A stretch of DNA of 38,015 bases from an uncultured bacterium (GCA_903911205.1 CAIWCL010000356.1:1-38015), one strand, 5' to 3'. Positions 12,336 to 34,965 are shown, counted from the stretch's first letter. The notes: generated by a model from the sequence alone, not told the origin. Numbers and translations are program-made.

Positions 12336-13385
12336 TCAGCGGCCGCTCTCCACGATGTTGTCCTTGTTGAACTCCTGCGTGTCGCGACGAACGTTGCGAT
12401 CGAAGAGACGATCCGCGCCGCGTGAGAAGAGTGCGAAAGCTGCACCCTTCAAATTCGCGACGGTGTAGTCGTCACCGCTCGCGTCGGCAACGCTACGAAC
12501 CTCTTGACCCGTCGCGAAATCCCACGGACGCAACGCAAAGACGTCGCCAAGGTTCACGAAACCGTCCGAACCATTCGAGAGTTCGCTCCGAAGATCTGTT
12601 CCCGCATACGGCGCGCGGTAGTACGAGATCGGCGTTCCCCAGTAATCGAGCAGCACCTTCGGGTAGTTGCCGAAATTGGGGTCCGCCTGGTCGTTTGTCA
12701 CCACGATCGGATTGCCCTGCGCGTCGAAACCCTTCAAACCACCAAGCAACTTCTCATCGGTGAGTTCGAGGTACGGGCCGTAGACACGACCTTCGATGCC
12801 GATCGAATTCCAGTTGGAATCGTTCACAGGAAGCGGAGTCGCATCGCGATTGGGATTGCGCGCGCGATAGAGACCGGGGAACGCCGCGTAGGCATTCTGC
12901 GGCGCATCAATCGCGCCCCACGCGCCGTCGGAACCGGGCGCTCGAATACCGAACGGCGGATTCTCCTTTGTTCCTGGCCCGGCGGAGCCCGCAAGCCGAA
13001 CGCCGTAACCATCTTCGCTTCGATTGCCGTAACCGATGAGGTACTCCGCAAGCGTGGTGTAACTGAACCACTGTTGGAGCGACGAAACTTGCCCCACTGT
13101 GGTGACGTCACGCGCGAACCCGCGAGCACCCGCCGCTTCACCACCCTGCCGCGCCATCAACACCGGCGGCAGATATCCAAAGTCGGTTTGAAACTGTCCG
13201 AGCCCTGATGCAATCGAACCCATCAAGAACTGCGTCTTGGTGCGCTGCGCCTTGCGAGTCGCCGCGCCGATCGCCACCGTCACCGACCCGATGAGGAGGA
13301 CGATGATCGCGACGACGGTGAGCAACTCCGTCAGCGTGAAACCCTGACGGTGCGATGTGGTGTTGTGGCGGTTCGGAGTGCGCAT
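12336..13385 (-). CDS. GspG-like prepilin-type protein (first of two)
   Basis: A 349-aa protein starting at ATG 13385. The signature RQGFTLTELLTVVAIIVLLIG is a standard prepilin N terminus. The end of the protein (FALFSRGADRLFDRNV, then KDNIVESG) resembles the GspG C-terminal metal-binding loop, as in the neighbouring gene. It is longer than typical GspG (about 140-150 aa), with inserted sequence in the middle. First gene of the prepilin cluster, 85 bases after the GspF/PilC gene across a short tandem-repeat region. Confidence 0.8.
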   Translation of the reverse strand: MRTPNRHNTTSHRQGFTLTELLTVVAIIVLLIGSVTVAIGAATRKAQRTKTQFLMGSIASGLGQFQTDFGYLPPVLMARQGGEAAGARGFARDVTTVGQVSSLQQWFSYTTLAEYLIGYGNRSEDGYGVRLAGSAGPGTKENPPFGIRAPGSDGAWGAIDAPQNAYAAFPGLYRARNPNRDATPLPVNDSNWNSIGIEGRVYGPYLELTDEKLLGGLKGFDAQGNPIVVTNDQADPNFGNYPKVLLDYWGTPISYYRAPYAGTDLRSELSNGSDGFVNLGDVFALRPWDFATGQEVRSVADASGDDYTVANLKGAAFALFSRGADRLFDRNVRRDTQEFNKDNIVESGR

Positions 13386-13438
13386 CGTTGGAGAGCCCCC
13401 TGCGGGCGTTGCGGACGAGATTCGGAGACTTACTCTCG

Positions 13439-13480
13439 CGAACTACTTCTTTCGAACTCCTTCTTTCGAATTACTTCTTC
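13439..13480. repeat. Three-copy 14-bp tandem repeat at the pilC stop
   Basis: Three consecutive 14-bp units (CGAACTACTTCTTT, CGAACTCCTTCTTT, CGAATTACTTCTTC) lie across the last codons and stop of the GspF/PilC gene and the following gap. On the minus strand the units read AAAGAAGTAGTTCG and variants. A fourth degenerate unit (about 13425-13438) may precede them. Purpose unknown. Confidence 0.7.
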
Positions 13481-14769
13481 GACGTGTTCGACACCGACTC
13501 GATCATCGAGACGAGCGGCAGGAAGAGCGCGAGAACGATGAGGAGCACGATGCCGCCGAGGATGACGACCATGAACGGTTCGAGGAGCGACAAGAGGCTC
13601 GCGACCGCAACGTCGACTTCTTCGTCGTAGTTGTCGGCGATCTTCATGAGCATCACGTCGAGGTCACCGGTCTCCTCGCCGACGTCGATCATGTTGACGA
13701 CGATCAAGTCGCAAGTCTTCGACTCGCGCAACGGCGTCGCAAACGTCTCACCTTCACGAATCGAGTCGTGCACCTTCGAAAGCGCCTTCTCAAAGACGTA
13801 ATTACCCGAGGTGTCACGGGTGATGAGAATCGCTTCGAGAATCGGCACACCTGCGCTGATGAGCGTTCCGAGCGTGCGGGTGAAGCGCGCAATTGCCGTC
13901 TTTCGCACAAGCGTGCCAACGACGGGCACCTTGAGCACTGCCCAGTCGGTTGCCGCGCGCCCCGGGCCTGTTTTTCGTATCAACTTGAAGAAGAGGAAGA
14001 TCAGAATGGGCGAGATGAGAATCCAAATCACGCCCGGTACGACCTGGTCTTTACTCGACGTACCTGCGACCCACTTCGAGCAGTCGATCATGAAGATCGT
14101 GAGCTTCGGGAGTTCGACGTCGAAGTCCTCGAAGATCTCTTGGAACTTCGGGATGACGAAGTACATGATGCCGGTGACGATGAGGACGGCGATGAAGATG
14201 ACGACCGCGGGATAAATGAGCGCACCGAGAATGCGGCGCTTGAGGCGCTGGCCCTTCTCCATGAACTCCGCGAGTCGCTGCAAGATGATGTCGAGCACGC
14301 CGCCGACCTCACCTGCCGCGACCATCTTCACGTAGAGACGATCAAACGCCTTCGGGAACTTTGCCATCGCTTCCGAGAGGCTGGTACCCGACTGCACTTC
14401 TTCCGCGACGCCCGTAAGCACGTTTTTCAGCGCGCTCGGCTTCTGCTGGCTTTCAAGGATTTGAATCGAGCGAAGGAGCGGAAGGCCTGCGTCTTGCAGC
14501 GTGGAAAGCTGACGCGTAAAGAGCGTCAGCTTCTTGGCGCTCACGCCGCCGAAGGTGAAGTTGAATCCCTTCTTCTTGGCTTTGGCTTCGCGAACCTTTT
14601 TCGGTCCGCCACCGCCGCCGCTGCCTGAAATCTTCTGCTCCTTCACGCCGGAAGGAAAGAGCCCCTGCCCGCGCACGAGCTTGATGGCTTCATCCGGGGT
14701 GCCGGCTTCGATGGTCCCGGAGACTTTCTTTCCGGCGGCGTTGACGGCGTCGTAGGCAAAGGTTGGCAT
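13471..14769 (-). CDS. GspF/PilC inner-membrane platform protein
   Basis: A 432-aa type II secretion/type IV pilus platform protein. The N-terminal segment MPTFAYDAVNAAGKKVSG is typical of the family. Two GspF domains follow (roughly residues 75-200 and 280-405), the first containing FTRQLSTLQDAGLPLLRSI and the second ARFTRTLGTLISAGVPILEA. Membrane helices are visible at about 190-215, 245-262 and 398-424. The protein recruits the assembly ATPase and passes its movement to the growing pilin fibre. GGAG lies six bases before the ATG. Length agrees with the family (about 400-430 aa). It stands between the ATPase gene and the prepilins, as in gspEFG loci. Confidence 0.95.
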   Translation of the reverse strand: MPTFAYDAVNAAGKKVSGTIEAGTPDEAIKLVRGQGLFPSGVKEQKISGSGGGGGPKKVREAKAKKKGFNFTFGGVSAKKLTLFTRQLSTLQDAGLPLLRSIQILESQQKPSALKNVLTGVAEEVQSGTSLSEAMAKFPKAFDRLYVKMVAAGEVGGVLDIILQRLAEFMEKGQRLKRRILGALIYPAVVIFIAVLIVTGIMYFVIPKFQEIFEDFDVELPKLTIFMIDCSKWVAGTSSKDQVVPGVIWILISPILIFLFFKLIRKTGPGRAATDWAVLKVPVVGTLVRKTAIARFTRTLGTLISAGVPILEAILITRDTSGNYVFEKALSKVHDSIREGETFATPLRESKTCDLIVVNMIDVGEETGDLDVMLMKIADNYDEEVDVAVASLLSLLEPFMVVILGGIVLLIVLALFLPLVSMIESVSNTSKK

Positions 14770-14899
14770 GGTTTGCTCCGTCGTATCTCACACTTCGGTC
14801 ACGCACCCGGAAAGGGTGGGGTTCGTTGGGTTCGCACGGTCGTGTGCTGTCTGCGCGCCGCGCTCGCGGCCGCGTTGAGCGTACTTCGCTGTTGTCTCT

Positions 14900-16723
14900 T
14901 TACTCTTCCGTAATCGTCTCGCGTACGACCTCGTCGATCGTCGTTTGACCGTTGAAAATCGCTTCAAGCCCCGACTCACGCAGCGTCTTCATGCCGCGCT
15001 TGCGCGCCTCGGCACGAAGAACGTTGGTCGACACCTGCTTCATGATCAGTTCGCGAATGTCGTCGTCCATCCCCATGATTTCGAAGATGCCCTGTCGGCC
15101 CTTGTAGCCGGACGCGCGGCATCGCTCGCACGGACGCCCGTTCTTCTTGCGCGAACCGCGGAAGAACTGCTTGCCTTCGACATCCTGCGGTCGAAGCGCA
15201 AGTTCCATCAGCATCTCTTCCGTCGGCGTAAACGCTTCCTTACAGTCGACGCACACCTTGCGGACAAGGCGTTGTGCGACGATGGCTTCGATCGTCGCGG
15301 TCAGAAGGAATGTTTCGACGCCAAGGTCGACGAGACGAAGCACCGTGCTCGGCGCGTCGTTTGTGTGGAGCGTCGTCAACACCAAGTGACCCGTGAGAGA
15401 CGCCTGAATCGCGATCTGCGCGGTTTCGAGGTCGCGGATTTCACCGACGAGAATGATGTCGGGGTCTTGACGAAGGAAGCTTCGAAGGAGCCGCGCGAAG
15501 GTCAACTCCTGATCGAGGTTGACCTGACATTGAATGAGGCCCTCGATGTCGTATTCGACCGGGTCTTCGGCGGTCAAAATCTTGACGCCCGGGTCGTTCA
15601 ACTCGTTGAGCGCGGCGTACAGCGTGGTCGTCTTACCCGAGCCAGTGGGGCCAGTGACGACCACGATGCCGTTCGGCTTGTTGATCAGCGTGCGAACCTT
15701 CTCGAGTTCCGAAGGCGCCAGGCCCACCTTGTCGAGCGAAAGCTGCACGTTCGAACGGTCGAGGATACGCATGACGACCGACTCGCCGAACATCGTCGGC
15801 AGGACGGCGACACGGAGATCGATTGGTCCGGTCGGCATCGGAAGTTCGATACGACCGTCCTGCGGAAGGCGGCGTTCGGCGATGTCGAGCTTCGACATAA
15901 CCTTGACGCGCGAGACGAGCGCGGTCGCGATCGACTTCGACACCGGCTGCATGTCGTACAGCACGCCGTCGATGCGGTAGCGAACTTTGAATTCGTCCTC
16001 AAAGGGCTCCATGTGAATGTCGGAGGCCTTGTCCTCAATCGCGACGAGCAGCAACTTCTGAACGAGTTGCACGACGGCGTTGTCGTTGGCTGCGTCGGCG
16101 AGTGCTGCGGTGTCATCGTCGAGCGACGAGCCGCGCCCCTTGAAGCGATCATCCGCGAATGACTTGTCGGCGTCGACGCTCGCATCCGCAGTGCGCGAGC
16201 CGCCAGCGCCACCACCGAAATGCTGGGTGATGAGTGCTTCGACTTGCGCGGCTGGCGCCACCACGACGGAGACGCGGCGCATGTTGCCCATCGACTTCAG
16301 ATTGTCGACGACGGTGTAGTTGTCCGCATCCTGCACAGCGATGGTGATCGCCTTCGCCCCCGCATCAAACTCCAACGGCATGAACAGGAACTGCCGGGGC
16401 ATCCGGCGTTGCACACACGCGATGGTCTCTGGGGTTGGCTCGAAGCCTTCAAGATCAACGTAGGCGAAGCCCTTTTGCGCAGCGAGCGCCTTCTGGATCC
16501 CCAACTCGTCGACGTAGCCCTTCTGGAGAAGGATCTGACCAAGCAGCTGCCCCTTGAACTCAGGGGTCTGCTGGAGTTTGACCATCTCTTCGATGAGTTC
16601 GGCGGTGATCTTGTCGAACTTGCCCAACTGACCAGCGCCCGAAAACTTGCGCAAGATGCGCCCGATTCGGGAGCCCTTCAAATTGGAGAGGGCCTTCTCG
16701 AGTTCTGGGGAGAGAATCGACAT
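14900..16723 (-). CDS. GspE/PilB-family assembly ATPase (copy 1)
   Basis: About 607 aa. An N-terminal MshEN-type domain (near residues 60-160, with LGQILLQKGYVDE and QKALAAQKGFAYVDLEG) precedes the hexameric ATPase. Visible elements are Walker A (TGPTGSGKTTTLY, about 355), the Asp box (TAEDPVEYDIEG), Walker B (DPDIILVGEIRD, about 419), the His box (GHLVLTTLHTNDAPST) and a C4 zinc site (CVDC about 489, CERC about 531) that marks extension-type ATPases. It powers pilin assembly from the cytoplasmic face. Start at ATG 16723, with GGAAG six bases upstream; a GTG at 16792 would add 23 residues. Confidence 0.93.
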   Translation of the reverse strand: MSILSPELEKALSNLKGSRIGRILRKFSGAGQLGKFDKITAELIEEMVKLQQTPEFKGQLLGQILLQKGYVDELGIQKALAAQKGFAYVDLEGFEPTPETIACVQRRMPRQFLFMPLEFDAGAKAITIAVQDADNYTVVDNLKSMGNMRRVSVVVAPAAQVEALITQHFGGGAGGSRTADASVDADKSFADDRFKGRGSSLDDDTAALADAANDNAVVQLVQKLLLVAIEDKASDIHMEPFEDEFKVRYRIDGVLYDMQPVSKSIATALVSRVKVMSKLDIAERRLPQDGRIELPMPTGPIDLRVAVLPTMFGESVVMRILDRSNVQLSLDKVGLAPSELEKVRTLINKPNGIVVVTGPTGSGKTTTLYAALNELNDPGVKILTAEDPVEYDIEGLIQCQVNLDQELTFARLLRSFLRQDPDIILVGEIRDLETAQIAIQASLTGHLVLTTLHTNDAPSTVLRLVDLGVETFLLTATIEAIVAQRLVRKVCVDCKEAFTPTEEMLMELALRPQDVEGKQFFRGSRKKNGRPCERCRASGYKGRQGIFEIMGMDDDIRELIMKQVSTNVLRAEARKRGMKTLRESGLEAIFNGQTTIDEVVRETITEE

Positions 16724-16992
16724 TGCAAACTTCCAGTCTGCCGCGTCCTTCACCGGACACCCACCGAAACGCTCGGCGGGAATCCCCGTCACGTGTCCTA
16801 TGACGTGCTATACGGCACGATGACCCCACACCAACGCGGCAACGTGGTGGGTCTGGCACAGGACACTTGGATTCATGTGCACGGCAGGCGCGCCGCAAAC
16901 GCGGTTTCGCGCCCCCAAACTGCCTCGGTCGGTCCGCGCGATTTCGGCGGCTGTGGCCCACCCGAATCGCGCCAATCCCGGCCGAGCAACCA
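16724..16992 (-). other. Structured 269-base spacer between pilT and the first gspE copy
   Basis: No gene is seen here. On the minus strand the spacer holds an outer inverted repeat (GTGTCCT at 16793-16799 with AGGACAC at 16859-16865). Inside it lies an imperfect CCACACCA/TGGTGGG pair. A possible weak promoter is TTGGTG, 16 bases, TATAGC. This could be the leader and promoter of the gspE copy; evidence is limited to base pairing read by eye. Confidence 0.3.
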
Positions 16993-18105
16993 TCAAACCT
17001 GATGCTCCTGATCGAGTTCGGCGCGACCGATCGTGCCGCCCGCCCGGTGGATCTTGTCCTTGAGATCACCTGGGTTCTTGCACTTATCGATGACCTCTTC
17101 CGCGCCAACCTTGCCCTCGGAGTAGAGCTTCCAAAGGTGATCGTCGAGGAGCTGCATGCCGAACTTCTTGCCGGTCTGGATCGCCGAGTCGATGCGGAAC
17201 GTCTTGTTCTCGCGGATCAGGTTCGAAATGGCGGGCGTGACCACAAGGAACTCGTACGCCGCCACACGGCCCGGCTTATCGGCGCGCGCGCAGAGTTGCT
17301 GCGAGAGCACCGCGATGAGCGAGGTGGACAACTGGACGCGAACCTGCTCCTGCTGAGTCACCGGGAACGCGTCAATGATGCGGTTGATCGTGCTGGCGGC
17401 GCCCGAGGTGTGCAGGGTGCCGAACACCAAGTGGCCAGTTTCTGCGGCGCGAATCGCCGACTCGATCGTCTCGAGGTCGCGCATTTCGCCGACGAGGATC
17501 ACGTCCGGGTCAGAGCGGAGCACGCGACGAAGGGCCTCGGAGAAGGACGGGACGTCCTTGCCGACTTCACGCTGGTTGACGACCGACTTCTTGTGGTAGT
17601 GGTAGTACTCGATCGGGTCTTCGATCGTCACGATGTGACGGTCGTAGAACTCGTTGATCCAGTTGACCATCGAGGCGAGCGTCGTCGACTTACCCGAACC
17701 AGTCGGCCCGGTGACGAGGAAGAGACCGCGCGGACGGCGCGAGAGTTCTTCGACGATCTTCGGGAGACCAATCTGCTCGAAGGTGAGCAGTGTGTTCGGG
17801 ATGAGACGAAGCACCATCGAGATGTCGCCGCGCTGACGGAACACCGACGCGCGGAAACGGGCTGCTTCACCGAACGCAAAGCCGTAGTCAGTGCCGCCGT
17901 GTTCAGCGAGTTCCTGCTGATTTTTTTCAGGCGTGATCGACTTCATCAGCGCCATGGCGTCGTCAGAGTCGACGACCTTCGTCGCGAGGCTCCGGAGCTT
18001 GCCGTGCAAACGAATCGTCGGCGGGCGGCCAACAGAAATGTGAAGGTCGGAGGCACCCTGCTTGACGATGGTGTCGAGAAGGCGGTCAATCTGCATCGCG
18101 GACAT
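16993..18105 (-). CDS. pilT: PilT twitching-motility retraction ATPase
   Basis: A 370-aa PilT-family ATPase. It opens with the PilT N-terminal domain (IDRLLDTIVKQGASDLHISVG, then PTIRLHGKL). Walker A is TGPTGSGKSTTLA (about 130), the Asp box VTIEDPIEY, Walker B DPDVILVGEMRDLETI, and the His box GHLVFGTLHTSGAAST. The zinc site of PilB/GspE is absent, as expected for retraction ATPases. PilT depolymerises type IV pili; classical type II secretion systems lack it, so its presence points to a retractile pilus. GAGAGG lies about nine bases before the ATG, directly behind a GC hairpin. It lies between two PilB-type genes. Confidence 0.93.
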   Translation of the reverse strand: MSAMQIDRLLDTIVKQGASDLHISVGRPPTIRLHGKLRSLATKVVDSDDAMALMKSITPEKNQQELAEHGGTDYGFAFGEAARFRASVFRQRGDISMVLRLIPNTLLTFEQIGLPKIVEELSRRPRGLFLVTGPTGSGKSTTLASMVNWINEFYDRHIVTIEDPIEYYHYHKKSVVNQREVGKDVPSFSEALRRVLRSDPDVILVGEMRDLETIESAIRAAETGHLVFGTLHTSGAASTINRIIDAFPVTQQEQVRVQLSTSLIAVLSQQLCARADKPGRVAAYEFLVVTPAISNLIRENKTFRIDSAIQTGKKFGMQLLDDHLWKLYSEGKVGAEEVIDKCKNPGDLKDKIHRAGGTIGRAELDQEHQV

Positions 18106-18122
18106 GTGTCGTTACCTCTCTT

Positions 18123-18139
18123 CCGGCGCGCGGCGCCGG
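18123..18139 (-). promoter_or_regulatory. GC hairpin directly before the pilT ribosome-binding site
   Basis: A 7-bp perfect stem (CCGGCGC/GCGCCGG) with a three-base loop ends two bases before GAGAGG, the Shine-Dalgarno sequence of pilT. A comparable hairpin stands before the Gfo/Idh gene at 25775-25789. It may stabilise or process the mRNA between gspE copy 2 and pilT, or modulate initiation. Confidence 0.5.
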
Positions 18140-18167
18140 CAATGCGTGTACGTAATTTTTTTCCGAC

Positions 18168-19937
18168 TCAGCCTTGCGAAATCTCCGACGGATCGAAGCC
18201 TTCGATCTGCGCGAAGTTCGCAATTTCGCTCGCGGTTGTGTCGCCGCGAAGAATCTTGATCTTGCCGTCCTCAACGAGACTGCGCATGCCGCCACGGATC
18301 GCGGCGTTGCGGAGCTTCGAGATGCTTGAACGGTTGAATGCAAGATCGCGGATCTCGGAGTTCATCGTCATCAGTTCGAAGATGGCGCGACGACCGCGAT
18401 ATCCGGTGCCACTGCAGCCAGCACATCCCACCGGCTTCATCAACGTGCCGTTCGCGAGTTCTTCCTCATTGATGCCGACGAGTCGCAACACCTTGCGATC
18501 TGGTGCGTCGTCCGGCTGCTTGCACTTCTCGCAAAGAATGCGGACGAGACGCTGTCCCATCACGGCCTGAATGGAGCTCGCCACAAGGAACGGTTTGACG
18601 CCCATGTCGATGAGACGCGTGATCGCGCTCGGCGCGTCGTTCGTGTGGAGCGTCGAGAACACCATGTGGCCGGTGAGTGCCGCCTGAATTGCGATGTCCG
18701 CGACTTCGCGATCGCGGATTTCGCCGACGAGAATGATGTTCGGTGCCTGACGGAGCATCGACTTCAGAATCGCCGAGAAGGTCAGGCCGATCGACTCACG
18801 AACCTGGACTTGGTTGATGCCCTTGAACGCGTATTCGACAGGGTCTTCCGCGGTGATGATCTTGCGGTCGGGCGTGTTGAGATCGTTGAGTGCCGAGTAG
18901 AGCGTCGTCGTCTTACCCGAACCGGTCGGGCCAGTGACGAGGAAGATGCCGTTTGGACGGCGGATGATTCGGTTGAATGCGTCGAGGTTGTCTCGCTGGA
19001 AGCCGAGCTTCTCAAGACCAAGTCGCGCGCTGTCGGGGCGAAGAATACGAAGGACGACGCTCTCGCCGTGTACGGCCGGACACGCAGAGACACGGAAGTC
19101 AACCACCGTCCCATCGATCGTCATCTTGATACGACCGTCTTGCGGGATGCGGCGCTCCGAGATGTTGACGCCCGCCATCAGCTTGAGACGCGCAAGCAGC
19201 GGATTCTGCATCTTCTTGGGAATGCGATCGCGCACCGTACACACACCGTCGATGCGGTAACGGAGGATGACTTCACCCTTGCGCGGCTCGACGTGGATAT
19301 CGCTTGCGCGCCCCTGCACCGCTTCAACGATAAACCGATCGACGAGGCGCACGATGCCAGACTCATTCGCGCCCGCACCAGCGTCGGAATCGAGTGAACT
19401 GTCACGCGATGCATCCCGCGAGCTGTCCTTCGACGAGTCACGCGAACTATCACGCGATTTATCGATCGAACTCGTCACGAGTTGCGAGTTCAGATCAGGT
19501 CCCGCGGATCCGCCAGAGATGTATTCGGCGAGTTGGGTCCGCGAGGCGATGCCGCCGATATCCGTCTTCCCTGCGGTGATGCCGATGGTGTCGAGCGCAT
19601 CGACGTCGATCGGATCATGCACAAGCAACAGCAGCGTGTTTTTCTCCCGACGCATCGGAAGCATCGTGTACTTCTTCTGCAGATCGGTCTTGAGAAGGCT
19701 TCGATCGATCTTCGTTGACGCTTCAGGCTTGGCGAGGTCAACAAACTCGACACCGAATTGCTCCGCAAGCGCTCGCGCGACCTGCTCTTCGGTGCAGGCA
19801 CCCTGCTCGACGAGCACTTCACCGACACGCTTGCCGAAGTCCTTCGACTCAAGGACCGCCGCCACGATTTTGTCCTGCGTGGCGGAGCCCTGTTCGATCA
19901 GGATCTCACCGATCTTCTTCTTGCTTTTGCGTGCCAA
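18168..19937 (-). CDS. GspE/PilB-family assembly ATPase (copy 2) with Ser-Arg-Asp repeat linker
   Basis: About 589 aa. The N-terminal MshEN-like domain (KIGEILIEQG, RVGEVLVEQGACTEEQVARA) is followed at about residues 152-182 by a low-complexity linker of repeated SRDSS/SKDSS units. Then comes the ATPase: Walker A TGPTGSGKTTTLY (about 331), TAEDPVEYAFKGINQ, Walker B NIILVGEIRDRE, FSTLHTNDAPSAI, and a C4 zinc site (CEKC about 466, CAGC about 504). I prefer the TTG at 19937 (MARKSKKKIGEILIEQG) because GGAG lies eight bases upstream; an ATG at 20045 would add 36 residues unlike the family. It is the first gene of the pilus locus, 62 bases before pilT. Two PilB-type ATPases in one locus suggest separate duties or a gene duplication. 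Confidence 0.9.
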   Translation of the reverse strand: MARKSKKKIGEILIEQGSATQDKIVAAVLESKDFGKRVGEVLVEQGACTEEQVARALAEQFGVEFVDLAKPEASTKIDRSLLKTDLQKKYTMLPMRREKNTLLLLVHDPIDVDALDTIGITAGKTDIGGIASRTQLAEYISGGSAGPDLNSQLVTSSIDKSRDSSRDSSKDSSRDASRDSSLDSDAGAGANESGIVRLVDRFIVEAVQGRASDIHVEPRKGEVILRYRIDGVCTVRDRIPKKMQNPLLARLKLMAGVNISERRIPQDGRIKMTIDGTVVDFRVSACPAVHGESVVLRILRPDSARLGLEKLGFQRDNLDAFNRIIRRPNGIFLVTGPTGSGKTTTLYSALNDLNTPDRKIITAEDPVEYAFKGINQVQVRESIGLTFSAILKSMLRQAPNIILVGEIRDREVADIAIQAALTGHMVFSTLHTNDAPSAITRLIDMGVKPFLVASSIQAVMGQRLVRILCEKCKQPDDAPDRKVLRLVGINEEELANGTLMKPVGCAGCSGTGYRGRRAIFELMTMNSEIRDLAFNRSSISKLRNAAIRGGMRSLVEDGKIKILRGDTTASEIANFAQIEGFDPSEISQG

Positions 19938-20139
19938 TTTCGCGTCTCCAGGGGAAGGCTCCCCGACTACAACGGGGGGAGTTTCGTAGTATCGCCCATC
20001 ACGCCCCTCGCCGCAACCGTTGTGTGACGCGGGGCTTCCGAACATTTTCGCGGCGATGCACGCCGTCCTGCGACATCGACCCTCGCCTCAGCACACTTCC
20101 TGTTGCCAATCCACTCCTGTTGCGAATTGACGTCGCTGC

Positions 20140-22157: not shown

Positions 22158-23411
22158 ATGCGCATTGCCATCGCTTTCATCCTCGCTGCTCTTGTCGTTC
22201 TTCCGCCGCTTGCACTGGCTGTGGCCGGAACAGGGTCAGCGCACCTCTCCCTCGGTCACGACGCGATTCCTGCCGTCGCTGCTCCGCAGGCGGAACCCGC
22301 GAAGGACGCCGACAAGACCGGCGAGCACGCCCAAGAGAAAGACAACGCTGTGTCGAACCCAACCACGCAATACTCACGATCTGGCTACGACGTCACGCCC
22401 CTCTCGCGCGAGCGCGTTGCCGAACTCGCGAAGAAACTCTCGCCGGAGGCGTACCGCATCACGCAGAACTCTGGTACCGAGCCTGCCTTCTGCGGCACAC
22501 TGCTCGACAACAAGAAGGACGGCACATATTGCTGTGTCGTGTGCGGACTCCCGCTCTTTTCGAGTTCGCACAAGTTCAACTCAGGTACGGGTTGGCCGAG
22601 TTTCTTTCAACCGTTTGATATCGCGCACGTCGCCGCGCGCGAGGACAACTCGCACGGGATGTCGCGCGTCGAGATCAACTGCGCGCGTTGCAATGCGCAC
22701 CTCGGCCACGTCTTTGACGACGGCCCAAAGCCCACAGGCCTGCGTTTCTGCTTGAATGGCGCGGCGCTCGTCTTCCATGAGAAGGGAACACCGCTCCCGC
22801 CAGAGTCGCAACCGTTGAAGACGGAAACGGCGTACTTCGCAGGCGGCTGCTTCTGGGGTATCGAGCACTACTTCCAACTCGCACCCGGGGTGATCAGCGC
22901 TGAGAGCGGTTACATGCAAGGTTCGACTGCTGATCCGACGTACAAGGAAGTTTGTACGCAAGACGAAACTCCATCGTCCCAGCGCCCTGCGGGCTACAAG
23001 GGCCACGCCGAGGCCGTCAAGGTCGTGTACGACCCAACGAAGATCACATATCGCCAACTGCTCGAAGGCTTCTTCGAGATGCACGACCCAACGCAGATGA
23101 ATCGACAGGGTCCCGACTACGGCACGCAGTATCGCTCCGGGATCTACACGGCAAACGCCGCGCAAGAGACTGACGCGAAGAAGTACGTCGCAGAACTCGG
23201 TGCACTCGCGCTCTTCAACGGCCGAAAAATCGTGACCGAGATCGAGCCCGCGAAGACCTTTTACCCGGCCGAGACGTACCACCAGGATTACCTCGAGAAG
23301 AATCCAACGCGCGGTTGTCACATCGGAAAGCCCTGGTGGATGACGAAGAAGACGCCTGCTCTTGAGGGCGCCCCCGCTTCAAACAAAGCTCCATCCACGG
23401 AAGCGCGTTAA
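22158..23411 (+). CDS. msrBA: Exported MsrB-MsrA fusion methionine sulfoxide reductase
   Basis: A 417-aa protein with a signal peptide (MRIAIAFILAALVVLPPLAL, likely cleaved near residue 28), then a low-complexity linker, MsrB, and MsrA. MsrB (about 75-205) has zinc-site CxxC pairs (CVVC about 125, CARC about 176), the block SGTGWPSF, and the catalytic-cysteine block RFCLNGAAL (about 196). MsrA (about 220-395) has the catalytic GCFWGIEHYF (about 232), GYKGHAEAVKVVYDP and YHQDYLEKNP. Together the domains reduce both R and S epimers of methionine sulfoxide. The signal peptide places repair outside the cytoplasm. The B-then-A order is the less common arrangement. ApbE begins three bases after its stop, so the pair is likely co-transcribed. 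Confidence 0.93.
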   Translation: MRIAIAFILAALVVLPPLALAVAGTGSAHLSLGHDAIPAVAAPQAEPAKDADKTGEHAQEKDNAVSNPTTQYSRSGYDVTPLSRERVAELAKKLSPEAYRITQNSGTEPAFCGTLLDNKKDGTYCCVVCGLPLFSSSHKFNSGTGWPSFFQPFDIAHVAAREDNSHGMSRVEINCARCNAHLGHVFDDGPKPTGLRFCLNGAALVFHEKGTPLPPESQPLKTETAYFAGGCFWGIEHYFQLAPGVISAESGYMQGSTADPTYKEVCTQDETPSSQRPAGYKGHAEAVKVVYDPTKITYRQLLEGFFEMHDPTQMNRQGPDYGTQYRSGIYTANAAQETDAKKYVAELGALALFNGRKIVTEIEPAKTFYPAETYHQDYLEKNPTRGCHIGKPWWMTKKTPALEGAPASNKAPSTEAR

Positions 23412-26777: not shown

Positions 26778-29054
26778 TCAACCGTTCCAATTCGAAACGA
26801 GAATCGCAAGATCTGTCGCATCGACGATGCCGTCGCCATTGATGTCGGCAGGACCCGATGTGGAGCCCCACGCTCCGAGCAAGCCCGCGAGGTCGCCGGC
26901 ATTCACCAACCCGTCGCCATTGATGTCGCCCGGGATCGACGCCGTGCAATCCACGTTGACGATCTTGAAGTCATCGACGCCCGCTTCGACAAGCGAGCCT
27001 GTTGCGAGGTCACGCGCAACGAAACGCACGCGAACATTCGCAGACGGTGTGATGAAACTTCGCACGCGATACGAACGCTTCGTCCAAACGGCGTTGTTCG
27101 TCGCGATGTCTTCGAGCATGGTCCACGTCGATCCGCCGTCGGCAGAGATTTCGACCGGCATGGAGTCGGCGTTGGGCGCGCCACCAAGGCTATTCGAGTA
27201 CCAGTACCAGAACTCAATCGTCGGCTCATCCATCTGTGACATATCGAAGCTAGGCGAGAGCAGCGTTGTCGTGCCGCCGTCGACGTCTGCGGCGCCGTCC
27301 GCGCCACCCACGTTGCCTTGACCGGTGATCCAGCACAGCGTGCCAGTTGCCGAATTGTCGTTTTCAGGCTGCGCACTTGTCCCAACAGGATCCACGCGCA
27401 CCCACTGGCCTGCGGTCGCGGTGTCACCTGCTACCCCTCCAACCCACCCCGACGCCGCTTCAAAATTGTGATCGACGGGCGTTTCGAGAGCGATGGCTGA
27501 GAACGCCGATCGCGAAACGTCGACGGTGCGATCGCCACCCGTGTTCGCAACTTCAAAGTTGTAACTCACGGTCGCGGTACAGGTCGTGGCCGGGAAGATG
27601 GCGCGATAGTTGTTTCCACCAAGCGCGGTCATCGCAACGGACGTTGTGTTGGAACCGACCGTGACGTTCATCTTCGCCGACGCCGGGTTGATGGTCTGAC
27701 CCTGTGCCGGCGCGATGACGACGTCCACAGTTGTCCCACCCGCTGGATTCACCATCGAAGGCGCATTCGCAACACTAAAGGTCGCGACGGGACCACCCAT
27801 ACGCCAAACGAACAACCCACGCTCAAGATCGCTACCGATCACGGTGCCGCTTGGGAAGTACGGGTAGCAACTCCACAGGCCGTTGAACTGCGCAGCGTCA
27901 TCACCTGGGTAGGTGTCGAAGTACGCAACCTCTGTCACGGAGGCGATGTTTCCGGGGGACGAAACATTGAACACACGCATTCCAGAGCGGTAATTCGCTT
28001 GGAACATCTTGCCCTGATGCGTGTAGCAGTTGTGCGTAATCGCAGGGGTCGAGTTGGTGAACTGACCGACCCACGTCGGCGTCGCGAGATTCTGAACGTT
28101 GATGACGTGCGTCGTCGAGAAGGACTGCGTTGCACCTTCGTCGAGTTCATCACCAAGGAGGAAGTATCGCTTGTCTTCCGTCAGCCAGCCTTGATGGCTG
28201 TAGCGTGCGCTCGGGTAGAGAATCCGCGAGATCAGTGTCGGCGCGGTTTTATTCGTGACGTCGACGATATACAGCCCAGTCTCGACATTCCCGCCGTTCA
28301 AGCCCGCGCAGCAGAACGCAATTTCCTTCCCCGCAAACGGGCCGCTGATGTAGTTCACAATCTGCGCGTCGTGGACGTAATGCGTACTCCACGCGCCAAC
28401 ATACGCGGGCGAGGTCGGACTCGAAAGGTTGTAGAAACGCAGCCCGTTCGAGCCGCCACCGCATCGGTAGAGGTATCCGCTTTGCTCGTTGATTGCGACA
28501 TTGTGGGTGGCGAGGCCGCCGCCTGATGTGATCGTGTTGACAAGCGAAACAGTGCCTTGGTCAACATCCAGGAGGCTCACCACCTGGATTCCAGCGCCGC
28601 CCTCCGTGACCACGTACGCGAAACCGTTGTACACCTTGACGTCGCGCCACAGACTCTGTGGACCCGGGATGAAACCGATCTTGGTCGCGTTCACGGGATC
28701 GGTGACTTCGTACACCGCCATGCCGTTTGAAACGCACATGAGCGCGTATTCACGACCCGAGGCAGAGACGTAGCCCCAACAATCGTTGCCGCTTGTCGCG
28801 CCTGCATCGATGGTGTTCAACGGGTGCCAAGACTTCAGCACGATGCCCTGAGCATCGAAGGTGCCCGCCACGGAGCCCTGCCCCTTGGACAGCTGTCCCT
28901 CTCGGTACACCGGACCTCGGAACGCTTTTTGTCGATCGCGAACTTTGCCGTCATCCTCGTGCGCTGAAGCAACATTGGAATTCAGAAGAGTTCCCAACGC
29001 GGCAAGCACGTAGAGGGCTGATCGGGCGAGCGTCGAAAATCGATTCGTCAACAT
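26778..29054 (-). CDS. Secreted choice-of-anchor-B (LVIVD-repeat) protein with dockerin-like C terminus
   Basis: A 758-aa protein with a signal peptide (LARSALYVLAALGTLLNSNV, ending ASA). Residues about 60-420 match the choice-of-anchor-B family: repeated blade segments such as ALMCVSNGMAVYEVTDP, VKVYNGFAYVVTEGGAGIQV, YLYRCGGGSNGLRFYNLS and GLYIVDVTNKTAP. A beta-sandwich-like region follows, then a carbohydrate-binding-like segment. The end holds two dockerin-type EF hands (DINGDGLVNAGDLAGLLGAW and DINGDGIVDATDLAILVSNW). Several His, Asp and Cys residues in the propeller (for example THNCYTHQG) may bind metal. Function is unknown; the C-terminal anchor part suggests a cell-surface or exported protein. 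No close operon partner upstream. Confidence 0.85.
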   Translation of the reverse strand: MLTNRFSTLARSALYVLAALGTLLNSNVASAHEDDGKVRDRQKAFRGPVYREGQLSKGQGSVAGTFDAQGIVLKSWHPLNTIDAGATSGNDCWGYVSASGREYALMCVSNGMAVYEVTDPVNATKIGFIPGPQSLWRDVKVYNGFAYVVTEGGAGIQVVSLLDVDQGTVSLVNTITSGGGLATHNVAINEQSGYLYRCGGGSNGLRFYNLSSPTSPAYVGAWSTHYVHDAQIVNYISGPFAGKEIAFCCAGLNGGNVETGLYIVDVTNKTAPTLISRILYPSARYSHQGWLTEDKRYFLLGDELDEGATQSFSTTHVINVQNLATPTWVGQFTNSTPAITHNCYTHQGKMFQANYRSGMRVFNVSSPGNIASVTEVAYFDTYPGDDAAQFNGLWSCYPYFPSGTVIGSDLERGLFVWRMGGPVATFSVANAPSMVNPAGGTTVDVVIAPAQGQTINPASAKMNVTVGSNTTSVAMTALGGNNYRAIFPATTCTATVSYNFEVANTGGDRTVDVSRSAFSAIALETPVDHNFEAASGWVGGVAGDTATAGQWVRVDPVGTSAQPENDNSATGTLCWITGQGNVGGADGAADVDGGTTTLLSPSFDMSQMDEPTIEFWYWYSNSLGGAPNADSMPVEISADGGSTWTMLEDIATNNAVWTKRSYRVRSFITPSANVRVRFVARDLATGSLVEAGVDDFKIVNVDCTASIPGDINGDGLVNAGDLAGLLGAWGSTSGPADINGDGIVDATDLAILVSNWNG

Positions 29055-29223: not shown

Positions 29224-30642
29224 TCACCTCTGACTTTGATCCGGAACTTCCGGTGAAGTGACACGGGGATTCTGTGGCCGCGAACCTTGGGTCGGTTCGG
29301 TACGGTCCGAAGAACCCCGGGGATCCCTCCACCACGGAGATTCGCGCAAGATCGTCAGATCGGGCGAGAGGCTTTCGAGGAAGGCGACGAGATCCGCCCT
29401 TTCCGGGTCGGTCAATCCAAGCGGTTCGAGGACCATCTCGCCGTGGTGACCGCTTGGGGAGGCCCCTTCCAGGGTGTCGTAGAAACGCACAACGTCCGAG
29501 AGTGACGCGAAACGGCCATCGTGCATGTACGGCGCGGTGAAAGCGACGCCGCGCAGCGGTGGAGTCCGAAACTGCCCGAATTGCTCACCACCCTCTTTCA
29601 AACCGCGCACCATGGCGGCCTTTGGCGAGTCGCGCGCGTCGCTGAACTCACCGGACACATTGAATGGATTTCGCTTGAGAAACGCGACCGCCGCTTCTCG
29701 GGCTGGATCGTCCGGTACCCGGCCGTTCGCGCCGACAAGTCCAAGTGCGTGAAACTCCTCGTCCGTGAAACTTGCCCCGCGATGGCACTGCCAGCATCCA
29801 GCACGAGAAACAAACAGCGCGAGGCCGCGGCGCGCCGACGCGCTCAGCGCTTCCAAATCGCCTTCGGGCTGCGCCTTCAGAGCGCTGACAAATCGATCGA
29901 GAGGAGTTCGCGTTGATTGAATTCGACGCTGATACGCACCAAACGCCTTGAGAACGAGCGCCGTCGTTTGATCGATCTCGCGCGACTCATCGGCCGTTGC
30001 TGTGTGCGCAAGTTCGAGCGGATCGCCACTCTCCGTTGAACGAGCAAGCGCCTCGGGAAATGGCCCGAAGGCTTGTTCGAATTGTTTCCGATGATGAGGC
30101 GTATCACGGATCACTTGCAGGAGTGTCCGTCGATGACCTCCCATCTCATCAGGATGTTCGATCGGAGCGAGCGCCTGTGACCACAGCGAGTCGAATTTCC
30201 CATCCCAACCAATCCATCGCCGCCGGGCCGAATCAACCACGGTGGGCGCGTTCCGACGCGAAACTCCAACTCCTCTTGCGAGCACCTCACTGTCCGTGAA
30301 GTACCGCTGCGGGTCGTGGCACGTGGCACACGAAATGCCACTCGGCGAAAGGCGCGTTTCGAAAAAGAGTGCGTGACCAAGTTCAGCAACCGCGTCGTCC
30401 TCCGCGAAACGATTCGAAGGATCGAGGGGCAACGATGGAAGCGGCGACATACGAAGTATGCGCGCGACTTCCTCTTGGGTGAGCGCGGCGAACTCTGGGG
30501 GACGCGGGGCAGTCTGTTGCGCGCGCGATTGCGCGGCCGTGCACAACACAACTACGAACGACACGAATGCTGATCGCAGCACCCTGGTTCTTCTGTTCGA
30601 TGTGATGCTCGTTGTTGTGCTTGTTGTTGTGCTAGTCGACAT
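29224..30642 (-). CDS. MauG-type di-haem cytochrome c peroxidase
   Basis: A 472-aa secreted protein with signal sequence RRTRVLRSAFVSFVVVLCTA (ending SRA). It has two c-type haem sites, CATCH (about residue 106) and CWQCH (about 282), and family blocks LGHALFFETRLSPSGIS, RRNAPTVVDSA and APYMHDGRFASLSDVVRFYD. This family includes bacterial cytochrome c peroxidase (reducing hydrogen peroxide) and MauG/MbnH, which oxidise protein tryptophans; sequence alone does not separate these. The ATG at 30642 overlaps the stop of the YtkA-like gene by 11 bases. Its first codons are a Ser/Thr-rich stretch from a short AAC-type repeat. Last gene of a three-gene operon. Confidence 0.9.
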   Translation of the reverse strand: MSTSTTTSTTTSITSNRRTRVLRSAFVSFVVVLCTAAQSRAQQTAPRPPEFAALTQEEVARILRMSPLPSLPLDPSNRFAEDDAVAELGHALFFETRLSPSGISCATCHDPQRYFTDSEVLARGVGVSRRNAPTVVDSARRRWIGWDGKFDSLWSQALAPIEHPDEMGGHRRTLLQVIRDTPHHRKQFEQAFGPFPEALARSTESGDPLELAHTATADESREIDQTTALVLKAFGAYQRRIQSTRTPLDRFVSALKAQPEGDLEALSASARRGLALFVSRAGCWQCHRGASFTDEEFHALGLVGANGRVPDDPAREAAVAFLKRNPFNVSGEFSDARDSPKAAMVRGLKEGGEQFGQFRTPPLRGVAFTAPYMHDGRFASLSDVVRFYDTLEGASPSGHHGEMVLEPLGLTDPERADLVAFLESLSPDLTILRESPWWRDPRGSSDRTEPTQGSRPQNPRVTSPEVPDQSQR

Positions 30643-31162
30643 CAAGCACCCACTGTGTGCGCTCCAAAATGCCATCCTCCTCGACATCAATCGCAAACGT
30701 CCACCGTCCCGACATGTGGAGCAAGAGTCCGTCCGCGATGAAGGCGCCTGCACGTGGACCATTTCGAATGGTGGGGATCAAGTTCATGCCATGTCCATGA
30801 TGAGGCATTTCTGCGTCGGCGAGGACACGCACATCATCCGCGAGCGCGCGCCCATCCTTTCGCTTCACTTCGATCGCAATCGAAAAAGGCTCGGCGTCCG
30901 GCAGAAAGCCACCAATCGGCTCCCAACGAACGATGTAGGTTCCGTCCGCCGACTCGGCTTGGCGAGCGGTGGAAGTCATCCATGCTTCATTCTCGAAAAC
31001 GTTTCTGTCCGACGTTGCGCTCGCTGCGGCAACTTCGACAGAAGTTGGAGGACTCGTCGCGGCGCCCCCGCCGCTCTCTCCGCAACCACTCGATCCGATG
31101 ATCGCCGCGCACGCGAGAGCGTTGAGCGTCTGAACGGGTAACCGAGGGGCGTTCGAATACAT
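30632..31162 (-). CDS. YtkA-like domain lipoprotein
   Basis: About 176 aa. An N-terminal hydrophobic segment ends with a cysteine (ALACAAIIGSSGCGES), a loose lipoprotein signal. A low-complexity linker is followed by a YtkA/FixH-like beta-sandwich (about residues 72-176). Its segments are YIVRWEPIGGFLPDAEPFSI, ADAEMPHHGHGMNLIPTI and LHMSGRWTFAIDVEEDG, matching the family's 'MP.HgHgm' and 'f.M.G.W.l.v.v' pattern. The His-rich MPHHGHGM loop may bind metal. ATG 31162 overlaps the stop of the upstream NHL gene by one base (TGATG) with GGAGG upstream, and its own end overlaps the peroxidase start by 11 bases. Its close coupling to the peroxidase suggests they act on each other or on one substrate. 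Confidence 0.82.
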   Translation of the reverse strand: MYSNAPRLPVQTLNALACAAIIGSSGCGESGGGAATSPPTSVEVAAASATSDRNVFENEAWMTSTARQAESADGTYIVRWEPIGGFLPDAEPFSIAIEVKRKDGRALADDVRVLADAEMPHHGHGMNLIPTIRNGPRAGAFIADGLLLHMSGRWTFAIDVEEDGILERTQWVLDVD

Positions 31163-33348
31163 CACTGCGATCCTCCGTTCGCACTCTCGCTCGTCACAGG
31201 TTCGCCATTTTTCGTGGTTCCAGCGGAAGGCGCCACCGTCGGCGCCGATAGCGGAATGGTCGAGGGCGATACAAAGCCAGGCGAGCCGCGACGTTTGCGA
31301 TCAAAGAACCTTCCAAGTCCACCGGTCATGTTCCAGGCAAATGGATCGCCGTCCTTCGCGCGGAAGCGTTGAAATCGATGATTCCCACGATCGATGACGA
31401 TCCATCCGAGGTCTGTACCGACGATGCTCGAAGGATCAAAGAACTGCTCGTCGAGTCCGCCACGTTCCCCAACGATGCGCGCAAGACGCCCATCCCAAAC
31501 GACACATCCGTCGCGTGCGGCATCGGTCACCACCAGCGCCTCCTCGAGGCATGCCACGCCAACGGGCCGGAGGAGCTCAACTTCGCCCAGCATTCGATGC
31601 ACGATCCACGCGCTCCGATCGCTCGGCTTCCCCGGCGGCAACTCGAAGACCGCCCGCGCCACGGGGTCCGCAATGAAGAGTGTTCCATCGATGCGCCGCG
31701 CCAATTCTTCCGGCGTTCGTGCCTCTGTGGGCAGCGGCGTGAAGGAACACGATGACAGTCGAACATCCGTCTCGATGACCCCGAGATTCGCTCGATCGAG
31801 GAGGAGTAATCGCTCCGCGCCGCCTGCGGGAAGTCCGACGATCATGTCACTGACATCGGGAACGCGAAATCCCGATTGCTGAGGCAGATCCATCCTCATC
31901 TTTGCGAGCCGAGACAGCGCCAAGGAGCGCGCGAGTCGCGGAATGAAGAGGTCAAGTTTCTGGGGTCCTGCTTTCTCCCAGTCCACGGCAAAGACATCAA
32001 TCCGCTGCCATACTCGATCAGAGACATAAAGACGCGCGTCAGAAGGATCGACGGCGAGCGCAGAGATCTCGCCGAACCGACCGGGGAGTGCACCGCTTCC
32101 TCCGATGATCGAGATGTGAAGTGGCGGCGTCGAGCGAGCGTCGAGCAGGGCGATGGATTGCGTCTCGACATCCACGACCGCCAAGAGATCGGCACCCGCG
32201 CCGGACTCTGCGCCAAAGTGGCTTGAGATGTACTCCAAACTGCCCGCAGTCGGATCAACAGGATCTTCTTCCGCCTTCAATCGAAGCAACTGCACGCGGT
32301 CTTCAAACGCCTCAGCGACAGCGATGGTGATTCCATCCGGCGCCACGGCAACCGCGCGGGGATAATGGATACGTCCATCACCTTGCCGCGGCACCAATGC
32401 ATGCATCCCGAAGAACCCTTGCGGCTTACCATCGGCATCGAGCACCTGAAGCCGATGATTGAGTTCGTCCGCAATCAAAAGACAGCCAGCGCCGCCTCCC
32501 GCCGGAATCACCGCAACATCACGCGGCGCACTGAACTGCCCCGGTCCGCTCCCACGCGTTCCGATCCGTTCGGGTGACTTGTTGAATTCGTCACCCGTCC
32601 TGCGAAATCGCCAAAGACAATTCGCGAGTCGATCGGCAACAAAGAGATCACCTGTGCCGCCGACGGCGAGGCCCGCAGGTTCAATCAAAGTTCCAACACC
32701 GAGTCGATCCACTTCACGACCGTCGCCATCAAACACCACCACCGCACGCAGCCGAGTGTCTGCAACGAGCGTTCTTGTGCTGTCGCATGTCACGGCGATC
32801 GGTGCCTCCAAAACTCCTTCGCCCACGCGAACACCGCCACGGATGACCGCCCCGGCAAGATCAACGACCACCACATCGCCGTCGTTTGAGATCGCCACGT
32901 CCACAGCGCACGATGCCTCGATCGTCTGCGGCTGGACGGCGAGGCTTCGGTTCTCCGTCACGTCGCCTTCGACGATTCCCTCGGGGCCGGGCAAGCGCCC
33001 TGCCAACATCTTCACAGGGGTCCAAGCCACGGCGACGAGTTGTGATCTCCGATTCTCCGTTGCGTCGCCTCCTGTTGGAAGAATCTCCGGCGTCGCAACG
33101 AGCAGTTCGTTTCCGCGGAAGGCAACACCACTTGCGCCTCGCAGGTCTGCGATGGTCGCAAGGTACAGCGCACCGCGCGGACAGGGCTGTGACACCGTCA
33201 GGGTTGAGGCTGATCGCAGTTCGGCTGCAGGCATGCGAATTGGCTCAACGCCTGACCCGTTGGCCGTCGTCCATGCGATTGCCACATTCAGAGCACCAAC
33301 AATCACAAAACTCGGCCGCATGAAGATCATGTTTGTGAGTGTAACCAT
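31162..33348 (-). CDS. Secreted NHL-repeat beta-propeller protein
   Basis: About 728 aa from ATG 33348, with a signal-like N terminus (MRPSFVIVGALNVAIAWTTA). NHL-type blades recur: GTLIEPAGLAVGGTGDLFVA, GQFSAPRDVAVIPAGGGAGC, DELNHRLQVLDADGKPQGFF, RIHYPRAVAVAPDG and GRFGEISALAVDPSDARLYV. The C-terminal part repeats the form (LRPVGVACLEEALVVTDAAR, DRGNHRFQRFRAKDG). More than six blades appear, so two propellers are possible. ATG 33330 and 33321 are alternative starts; the open frame continues upstream over the divergent antiporter gene but is not coding there. First gene of the propeller/YtkA/peroxidase operon; a likely scaffold or binding protein outside the cytoplasm. Confidence 0.85.
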   Translation of the reverse strand: MVTLTNMIFMRPSFVIVGALNVAIAWTTANGSGVEPIRMPAAELRSASTLTVSQPCPRGALYLATIADLRGASGVAFRGNELLVATPEILPTGGDATENRRSQLVAVAWTPVKMLAGRLPGPEGIVEGDVTENRSLAVQPQTIEASCAVDVAISNDGDVVVVDLAGAVIRGGVRVGEGVLEAPIAVTCDSTRTLVADTRLRAVVVFDGDGREVDRLGVGTLIEPAGLAVGGTGDLFVADRLANCLWRFRRTGDEFNKSPERIGTRGSGPGQFSAPRDVAVIPAGGGAGCLLIADELNHRLQVLDADGKPQGFFGMHALVPRQGDGRIHYPRAVAVAPDGITIAVAEAFEDRVQLLRLKAEEDPVDPTAGSLEYISSHFGAESGAGADLLAVVDVETQSIALLDARSTPPLHISIIGGSGALPGRFGEISALAVDPSDARLYVSDRVWQRIDVFAVDWEKAGPQKLDLFIPRLARSLALSRLAKMRMDLPQQSGFRVPDVSDMIVGLPAGGAERLLLLDRANLGVIETDVRLSSCSFTPLPTEARTPEELARRIDGTLFIADPVARAVFELPPGKPSDRSAWIVHRMLGEVELLRPVGVACLEEALVVTDAARDGCVVWDGRLARIVGERGGLDEQFFDPSSIVGTDLGWIVIDRGNHRFQRFRAKDGDPFAWNMTGGLGRFFDRKRRGSPGFVSPSTIPLSAPTVAPSAGTTKNGEPVTSESANGGSQ

Positions 33349-34905: not shown

Positions 34906-34965
34906 AAATCACGGGCGCCGAAATCACGGGCGCCGAAATCACGGGCGCCGAAATCACGGGCGCCG
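34906..34965. repeat. Four perfect copies of a 15-bp tandem repeat
   Basis: The unit AAATCACGGGCGCCG is repeated four times without a mismatch. It lies between the convergent antiporter and deacetylase genes, and the deacetylase TGA (minus strand) is inside the last unit. Each unit contains the palindrome GGCGCC. The period of 15 bases is a multiple of three, so changes in copy number would not alter frame in any overlapping reading. Confidence 0.95.

Follow-up and report, generated by a model that had tools for sequence, protein, structure and literature searches.

A YtkA/CrdA-like lipoprotein paired with a MauG-like di-haem enzyme in at least five bacterial phyla

The window analysed here, a stretch of 38,015 nucleotides from an uncultured bacterium (GCA_903911205.1, CAIWCL010000356.1:1-38015), encodes a MauG-like di-haem enzyme next to a YtkA/CrdA-like lipoprotein, and this gene pair recurs in at least five phyla. 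Both the enzyme superfamily and the fold of the partner are already known; no published description of the pairing was found in the open-access literature. Such a pairing points to a hitherto undescribed system whose enzyme would oxidise or mature a copper-binding partner.

Gene arrangement and conservation of the locus

The trio of NHL protein, YtkA-like lipoprotein and MauG-like enzyme reported in the first-pass annotation was recovered with the same coordinates on the minus strand. A fourth gene, predicted to encode a choice-of-anchor-B protein and absent from that annotation, is co-conserved with it. The genes and their relevant segments are as follows.

31162..33348, minus strand: NHL protein, first gene of the operon (NHL Pfam match, E 1.5e-8)
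32218..32403, minus strand: stretch coding propeller residues H316, H328, E346 and H377, a putative metal or active site
30632..31165, minus strand: YtkA/CrdA-like lipoprotein (start GTG at 31165 or ATG at 31162)
30785..30808, minus strand: lipoprotein motif MPHHGHGM, residues 120-127 (M120, H123, H125 and M127 invariant)
30701..30718, minus strand: lipoprotein motif HMSGRW, residues 150-155 (H150, M151 and the only invariant Trp, W155)
29224..30642, minus strand: MauG-like di-haem enzyme of the YtkA-linked clade (CCP_MauG, PF03150, E 1.1e-36)
30316..30330, minus strand: first haem motif of the enzyme, CATCH, C105-H109 (invariant, 109/109)
30145..30216, minus strand: active-site stretch of the enzyme, W143-E166 (W143 and W154 clade-specific; W146, Q156, P160 and E166 as in MauG)
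29782..29796, minus strand: second haem motif of the enzyme, CWQCH, C283-H287 (invariant)
29479..29481, minus strand: Y388 of the enzyme, predicted axial ligand of the six-coordinate haem (by alignment to MauG Tyr294; 109/109)
29437..29448, minus strand: HHGE loop of the enzyme, H399-E402 (diagnostic of the YtkA-linked clade)
26778..29054, minus strand: choice-of-anchor-B LVIVD propeller with C-terminal dockerin, co-conserved fourth gene (TIGR04312, E 3.5e-99)

The tight coupling described earlier was also borne out. The TGA of the propeller gene occupies 31164-31162 and the next start is either GTG at 31165 or ATG at 31162, so that the reported TGATG is right and the two genes are joined by GTGATG; the lipoprotein and enzyme genes overlap by 11 bases (30642-30632).

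Elsewhere in the window, a Type II secretion/type IV pilus cluster (12336-20045, minus strand) includes genes for T2SSF and for three T2SSE ATPases, besides one for a prepilin-like protein that bears an N-methylation motif. A fused MsrB-MsrA peptide methionine sulfoxide reductase, syntenic in the genus, is encoded at 22158-23411 (plus strand), less than 10 kb from the di-haem enzyme gene, and four perfect copies of the 15-base tandem repeat AAATCACGGGCGCCG (34906-34965) lie just past a CitMHS-like gene.

Among 61 relatives searched with the lipoprotein without any motif seed, the lipoprotein was found in 26 genomes, hereafter the close set. It is adjoined by the propeller in 26/26 of these genomes and has the enzyme beside it as well, which is inverted in locus L026 and lies off the short locus L022; the order of the trio is thus kept in essentially every close relative carrying the lipoprotein. 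The choice-of-anchor-B gene adjoins the trio in 19 of 20 larger regions, even where the remaining gene order is lost, and the conserved unit among close relatives therefore consists of four genes. The choice-of-anchor-B protein belongs with the trio and could itself be a metal-binding propeller; H72, H224, H268, H327 and H381 (open-frame numbering) and several tryptophans are invariant in 20 relatives.

A wide scan of 84,980 species genomes, seeded with the pattern D[AG]xMPxH[GR]HG, returned at least 515 confirmed relatives, the best 80 of which were examined. Among these best 80 of at least 515, the lipoprotein occurs together with a MauG-like gene in 74 of the 76 loci with at least 1 kb downstream, the propeller gene precedes that of the lipoprotein in 58 of 69 testable loci, and the choice-of-anchor-B gene is nearby in 42 of 61 wider loci. 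The genomes carrying the pair are assigned to Planctomycetota, Verrucomicrobiota, Deltaproteobacteria/Myxococcota, Acidobacteriota (Holophagae) and Pseudomonadota, which makes at least five phyla, although single placements may be wrong since most of the genomes are MAGs. No hint of function came from the genes that flank the pair at distant loci (RuvA/RuvC, guanylate kinase, beta-lactamase). At one distant locus without a detected NHL propeller (L113:2650-5049), a multi-haem cytochrome (Cytochrome_C7/CIII) is encoded near the pair.

In a sample of 59 genomes of the phylum, a search with the enzyme profile gave strong matches (at least 305 bits) in nine genomes only, and these are exactly the nine in which a separate profile search detected the lipoprotein (Fisher 8e-11, uncorrected for kinship). 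The neighbourhood survey that the first-pass annotation had called for thus speaks decisively for conservation and establishes the YtkA-like protein as the consistent partner of the enzyme across phyla. Pairing in relatives, together with the tree described below, rules out a chance neighbourhood or a single-gene finding.

The lipoprotein and its di-haem enzyme

The lipobox of the window lipoprotein is weak (SSGC), while canonical lipoboxes, for example LLGC and LAGC, occur in many relatives. Similarly, the window protein reaches only 17.5 bits against the YtkA family PF13115 (cut-off 25.9), which other MauG-linked members pass. YtkA was the only family detected in Pfam and none was detected in NCBIfam; the missing match to the MbnP family rules out MbnP as the identity of the partner. 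The lipoprotein profile retrieves H. pylori CrdA (E 1e-4). The AF2 model resembles the apo and silver-bound CrdA structures most closely (Foldseek 1.8e-6), with Z 12.8 and rmsd 2.1 over 100 residues, the next match having Z 9.4. As this structural match covers most of the domain, a CrdA/YtkA fold is predicted. CrdA is a copper-resistance protein (structure titles 9ll2/9ll4) and YtkA domains handle copper in B. subtilis (PMC13344008).

The mature protein does contain the four tryptophans (W62, W81, W155, W172) and the MPHHGHGM loop pointed out in the first-pass annotation. However, the argument drawn there from the four tryptophans has to be rejected because only W155 is conserved: W62 is present in 3/26, W81 in 17/26 and W172 in 14/26 sequences of the close set, whereas W155 is invariant in both the close (26/26) and the wide set (110/110). 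M120, H123, H125, M127, H150 and M151 are likewise invariant in the unseeded close set (26/26). In the wide set the MPxHxHG motif is constant because the scan was seeded with it; the HM motif and W155 lie outside the seed, and H150 and M151 were found in 109/110 and 110/110 sequences, respectively.

Aligned with CrdA, the lipoprotein has M120, M127, M151 and W155 in common with it, whereas CrdA carries Met, Pro and Ser at the positions of H123, H125 and H150. Neither the MPxHxHG nor the HM motif occurs in those PF13115 proteins of the same phylum that have no MauG gene beside them, but the GxW tryptophan is present in 9 of 12 of them and also in CrdA. The added histidines, and not the tryptophan, therefore mark the MauG-linked group. 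One lipoprotein-like match (L181) has both motifs, yet no MauG gene was detected within its locus. Given the frequency of the GxW tryptophan in relatives without MauG, W155 may be structural, and its invariance alone is ruled out as proof of a modification. Judged by its residue pattern, we infer that the lipoprotein contains a copper-site-like set of three methionines (M120, M127, M151) and three histidines (H123, H125, H150) beside W155, copper binding being putative.

According to its Pfam match (127 bits, cut-off 25.6) and the motifs CATCH and CWQCH, the enzyme belongs to the MauG/CCP di-haem superfamily PF03150. The closest solved structure is the di-heme enzyme 6e1c (E 1.1e-23), which is MbnH. 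The description of the window enzyme as MauG-type in the first-pass annotation agrees with a segment alignment, in which Y388 corresponds to MauG Tyr294, the axial tyrosine, and Q156, P160, E166 and W146, placed by their spacing to the MauG residues, correspond to Q103, P107, E113 and W93, functional residues of MauG. A MauG-type ligation with Tyr instead of Met at the six-coordinate haem is accordingly predicted for all linked enzymes (Y388 in 109/109), and the Tyr ligand is also common in other MauG-like proteins of the phylum (31/35). The position of the interface Trp199 of MauG is Ala or Gly in both the YtkA-linked and the other enzymes (A281 in the window enzyme), and any hole path must therefore differ from that of MauG. 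An identity as TTQ MauG (equivalog TIGR03791, 155.2 bits against a cut-off of 443.85) or MbnH (TIGR04039, 144.2 against 362.85) was rejected; the latter cut-off was reached in none of 119 genomes of the phylum.

When the YtkA-linked enzymes were placed in a quick tree alongside 35 further MauG-like proteins from the phylum, they grouped in a single clade (SH-aLRT 99, branch 0.83), and the Verrucomicrobia sequences form a group of their own (starred). Two rows labelled as other enzymes fall inside the clade: for L187 the lipoprotein is present and was missed only by the length filter, and for L185 no lipoprotein was detected within its locus. The clade is set apart by W143 (108/109 YtkA-linked enzymes vs 1/35 others), W154 (109/109 vs 0/35), H400 (104/109 vs 1/35) and E402 (106/109 vs 0/35).

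Possible function of the pair

Paired inheritance in five phyla and clade-specific residues on both proteins suggest a direct enzyme-partner relation. Tentatively, and with somewhat less than even confidence, we propose that the two form an envelope pair of copper protein and di-haem enzyme and that the lipoprotein undergoes oxidation by the enzyme, W155 being the likeliest site, which would make or tune a copper site. The lipoprotein would be a copper carrier of the CrdA/CtaK type to which the MauG-like enzyme is dedicated. With H2O2, the enzyme would form a high-valent di-haem state involving the Tyr-ligated six-coordinate haem, with W146 between the haems. It would then oxidise the lipoprotein over a distance, most probably converting W155 into a kynurenine-type or hydroxylated residue; the clade-specific W143 and W154 may act as hole relays. 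The modified residue would complete or tune the copper site, as has been proposed for CorB/CorA and MbnH/MbnP, and the modified, copper-loaded protein may work with, or load, the propeller partner. Oxidation of W155 is proposed because of the analogy with CorA/MopE and the MbnP class. In CorA/MopE the copper site consists of two histidines and kynurenine, an oxidised tryptophan, and a MauG-like di-haem gene is co-transcribed (PMC3912023). Points that weigh against the proposal are the occurrence of the GxW tryptophan in CrdA and in relatives without MauG, the Ala or Gly at the Trp199 position and the presence of the Tyr ligand in most other MauG-like proteins as well.

It seems rather unlikely that the di-haem protein is instead a true H2O2-removing peroxidase which receives electrons from the copper form of the YtkA-like protein without modifying any residue. 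A dedicated small protein with a redox-capable candidate metal site beside an enzyme of the CCP family would suit such a role, and BthA is an efficient peroxidase despite its Tyr-His ligation (PMC6405878). However, bacterial CCPs have a Met-ligated haem (PMC6405878) where all 109 linked enzymes have Y388, and the partner resembles a copper carrier and not a cupredoxin.

The propeller has been suggested to serve as a scaffold, which is too weak a description for a double propeller with invariant His and Glu residues that is replaced by an unrelated protein in Verrucomicrobia. The AF2 model of the NHL protein (pTM 0.83) consists of two six-bladed beta-propellers in tandem, the first of which (residues 51-355) has its best PDB match in the NHL domain of Thin (Z 34.5); a Foldseek search with the whole double propeller retrieved mainly eukaryotic multi-propeller proteins and was uninformative on function. 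The mtoX product likewise has a propeller fold.

That the propeller is the true substrate, which the lipoprotein as copper chaperone and the MauG-like enzyme would mature into a copper-dependent enzyme, is unlikely. It would follow the same logic of propeller, copper chaperone and MauG-like enzyme as described for the mtoX-SCO1-mauG methanethiol oxidase operon, for which propeller maturation has been proposed and fusions occur (PMC5739008). All 61 propeller proteins (61/61) share H316, H328, E346 and H377, and natural in-frame propeller::YtkA fusions exist in several lineages (L022, L025, L083, L088, L092, L102, L104, L110, L136, L152, L154). However, no tryptophan of the NHL propeller is conserved across the wide set (n=61), and the locus gave NHL and YtkA matches but no SBP56 or SCO1 homologues, by which the mtoX-SCO1-mauG system itself is ruled out. 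Moreover, the propeller is absent in 11 of 69 loci among the best 80 of at least 515, and in Verrucomicrobia its place is taken by a different protein that cannot be aligned to it; in L117 this protein forms a fusion with YtkA. Since the pair persists in these cases, the propeller is neither a universal part nor a universal substrate. The Verrucomicrobia protein of about 750 amino acids is encoded directly upstream of the YtkA-MauG pair (L085:2966-5215, L094:3599-5845, L105:3635-5872, L099:384-2591); it gave no Pfam match above the cut-off and one sub-threshold match to a RIFT-barrel family.

A detoxification of envelope copper, in which the enzyme and peroxide oxidise lipoprotein-bound Cu(I) to Cu(II) without protein modification, is very unlikely: it would fit the copper-resistance role of CrdA, the Met3 set common to CrdA and the added His3 set, which would favour Cu(II), but the flanking genes that were examined included none for copper export or resistance, and we know of no cuprous oxidation in the MauG/CCP di-haem superfamily.

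Relation to known systems and significance

Oxidation of the lipoprotein by its paired enzyme would have its nearest parallels in systems that differ in the partner. MbnH/MbnP (TIGR04039/TIGR04052), a conserved pair of a MauG-like enzyme and a small secreted partner in many genomes (PMC3621798), resembles the pair in gene arrangement and in the closest enzyme structure, but its partner is MbnP instead of a CrdA/YtkA-like protein, the upstream propellers differ and the window enzyme stays below the MbnH cut-off. CorA/CorB and MopE/SACCP of methanotrophs also combine a partner protein, there a copper protein with His ligands and kynurenine, with a MauG-like di-haem protein, the partner family being another one, whereas a Met3-His3 set forms the putative copper site here. 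Equivalents of MauG Tyr294, Q103, P107, E113 and W93 are all present in the window enzyme, but in contrast to MauG/methylamine dehydrogenase no mau genes lie beside it, the Trp199 position is Ala/Gly and the MauG cut-off is not reached.

The mtoX-SCO1-mauG operon has the same combination of propeller, copper chaperone and MauG-like enzyme, including fusions, but with SBP56 instead of an NHL double propeller and SCO1 instead of the YtkA/CrdA fold. Helicobacter CrdA agrees with the lipoprotein in fold and in Met/Trp positions but lacks the three added histidines of the MauG-linked group. CtaK/YtkA and the YtkA domain of YcnJ in Bacillus handle copper (PMC13344008), as the lipoprotein may do. A MauG partner for CtaK/YtkA, YcnJ or CrdA has not been described in the literature examined.

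Taken more broadly, the clade may represent a new MauG-like family in at least five phyla, each member dedicated to a copper lipoprotein of the CrdA/YtkA type whose single invariant tryptophan would be modified for a copper site of Met and His residues. W143/W154 would then act as a new relay for hole transfer, and the copper protein would serve a large secreted partner, either the double propeller or others; we regard this extended proposal as possible but doubtful.

MauG-like proteins are numerous and, to our knowledge, nearly all of them lack a known substrate. For the enzymes described here, the neighbouring gene points to a substrate candidate in at least five phyla, and specific residues are available on both sides. 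If the proposed oxidation is true, the lipoproteins would add one more independent family to the partner proteins that di-haem enzymes oxidise, and di-haem oxidation chemistry would be tied to a common copper-carrier fold outside the methanotrophs.
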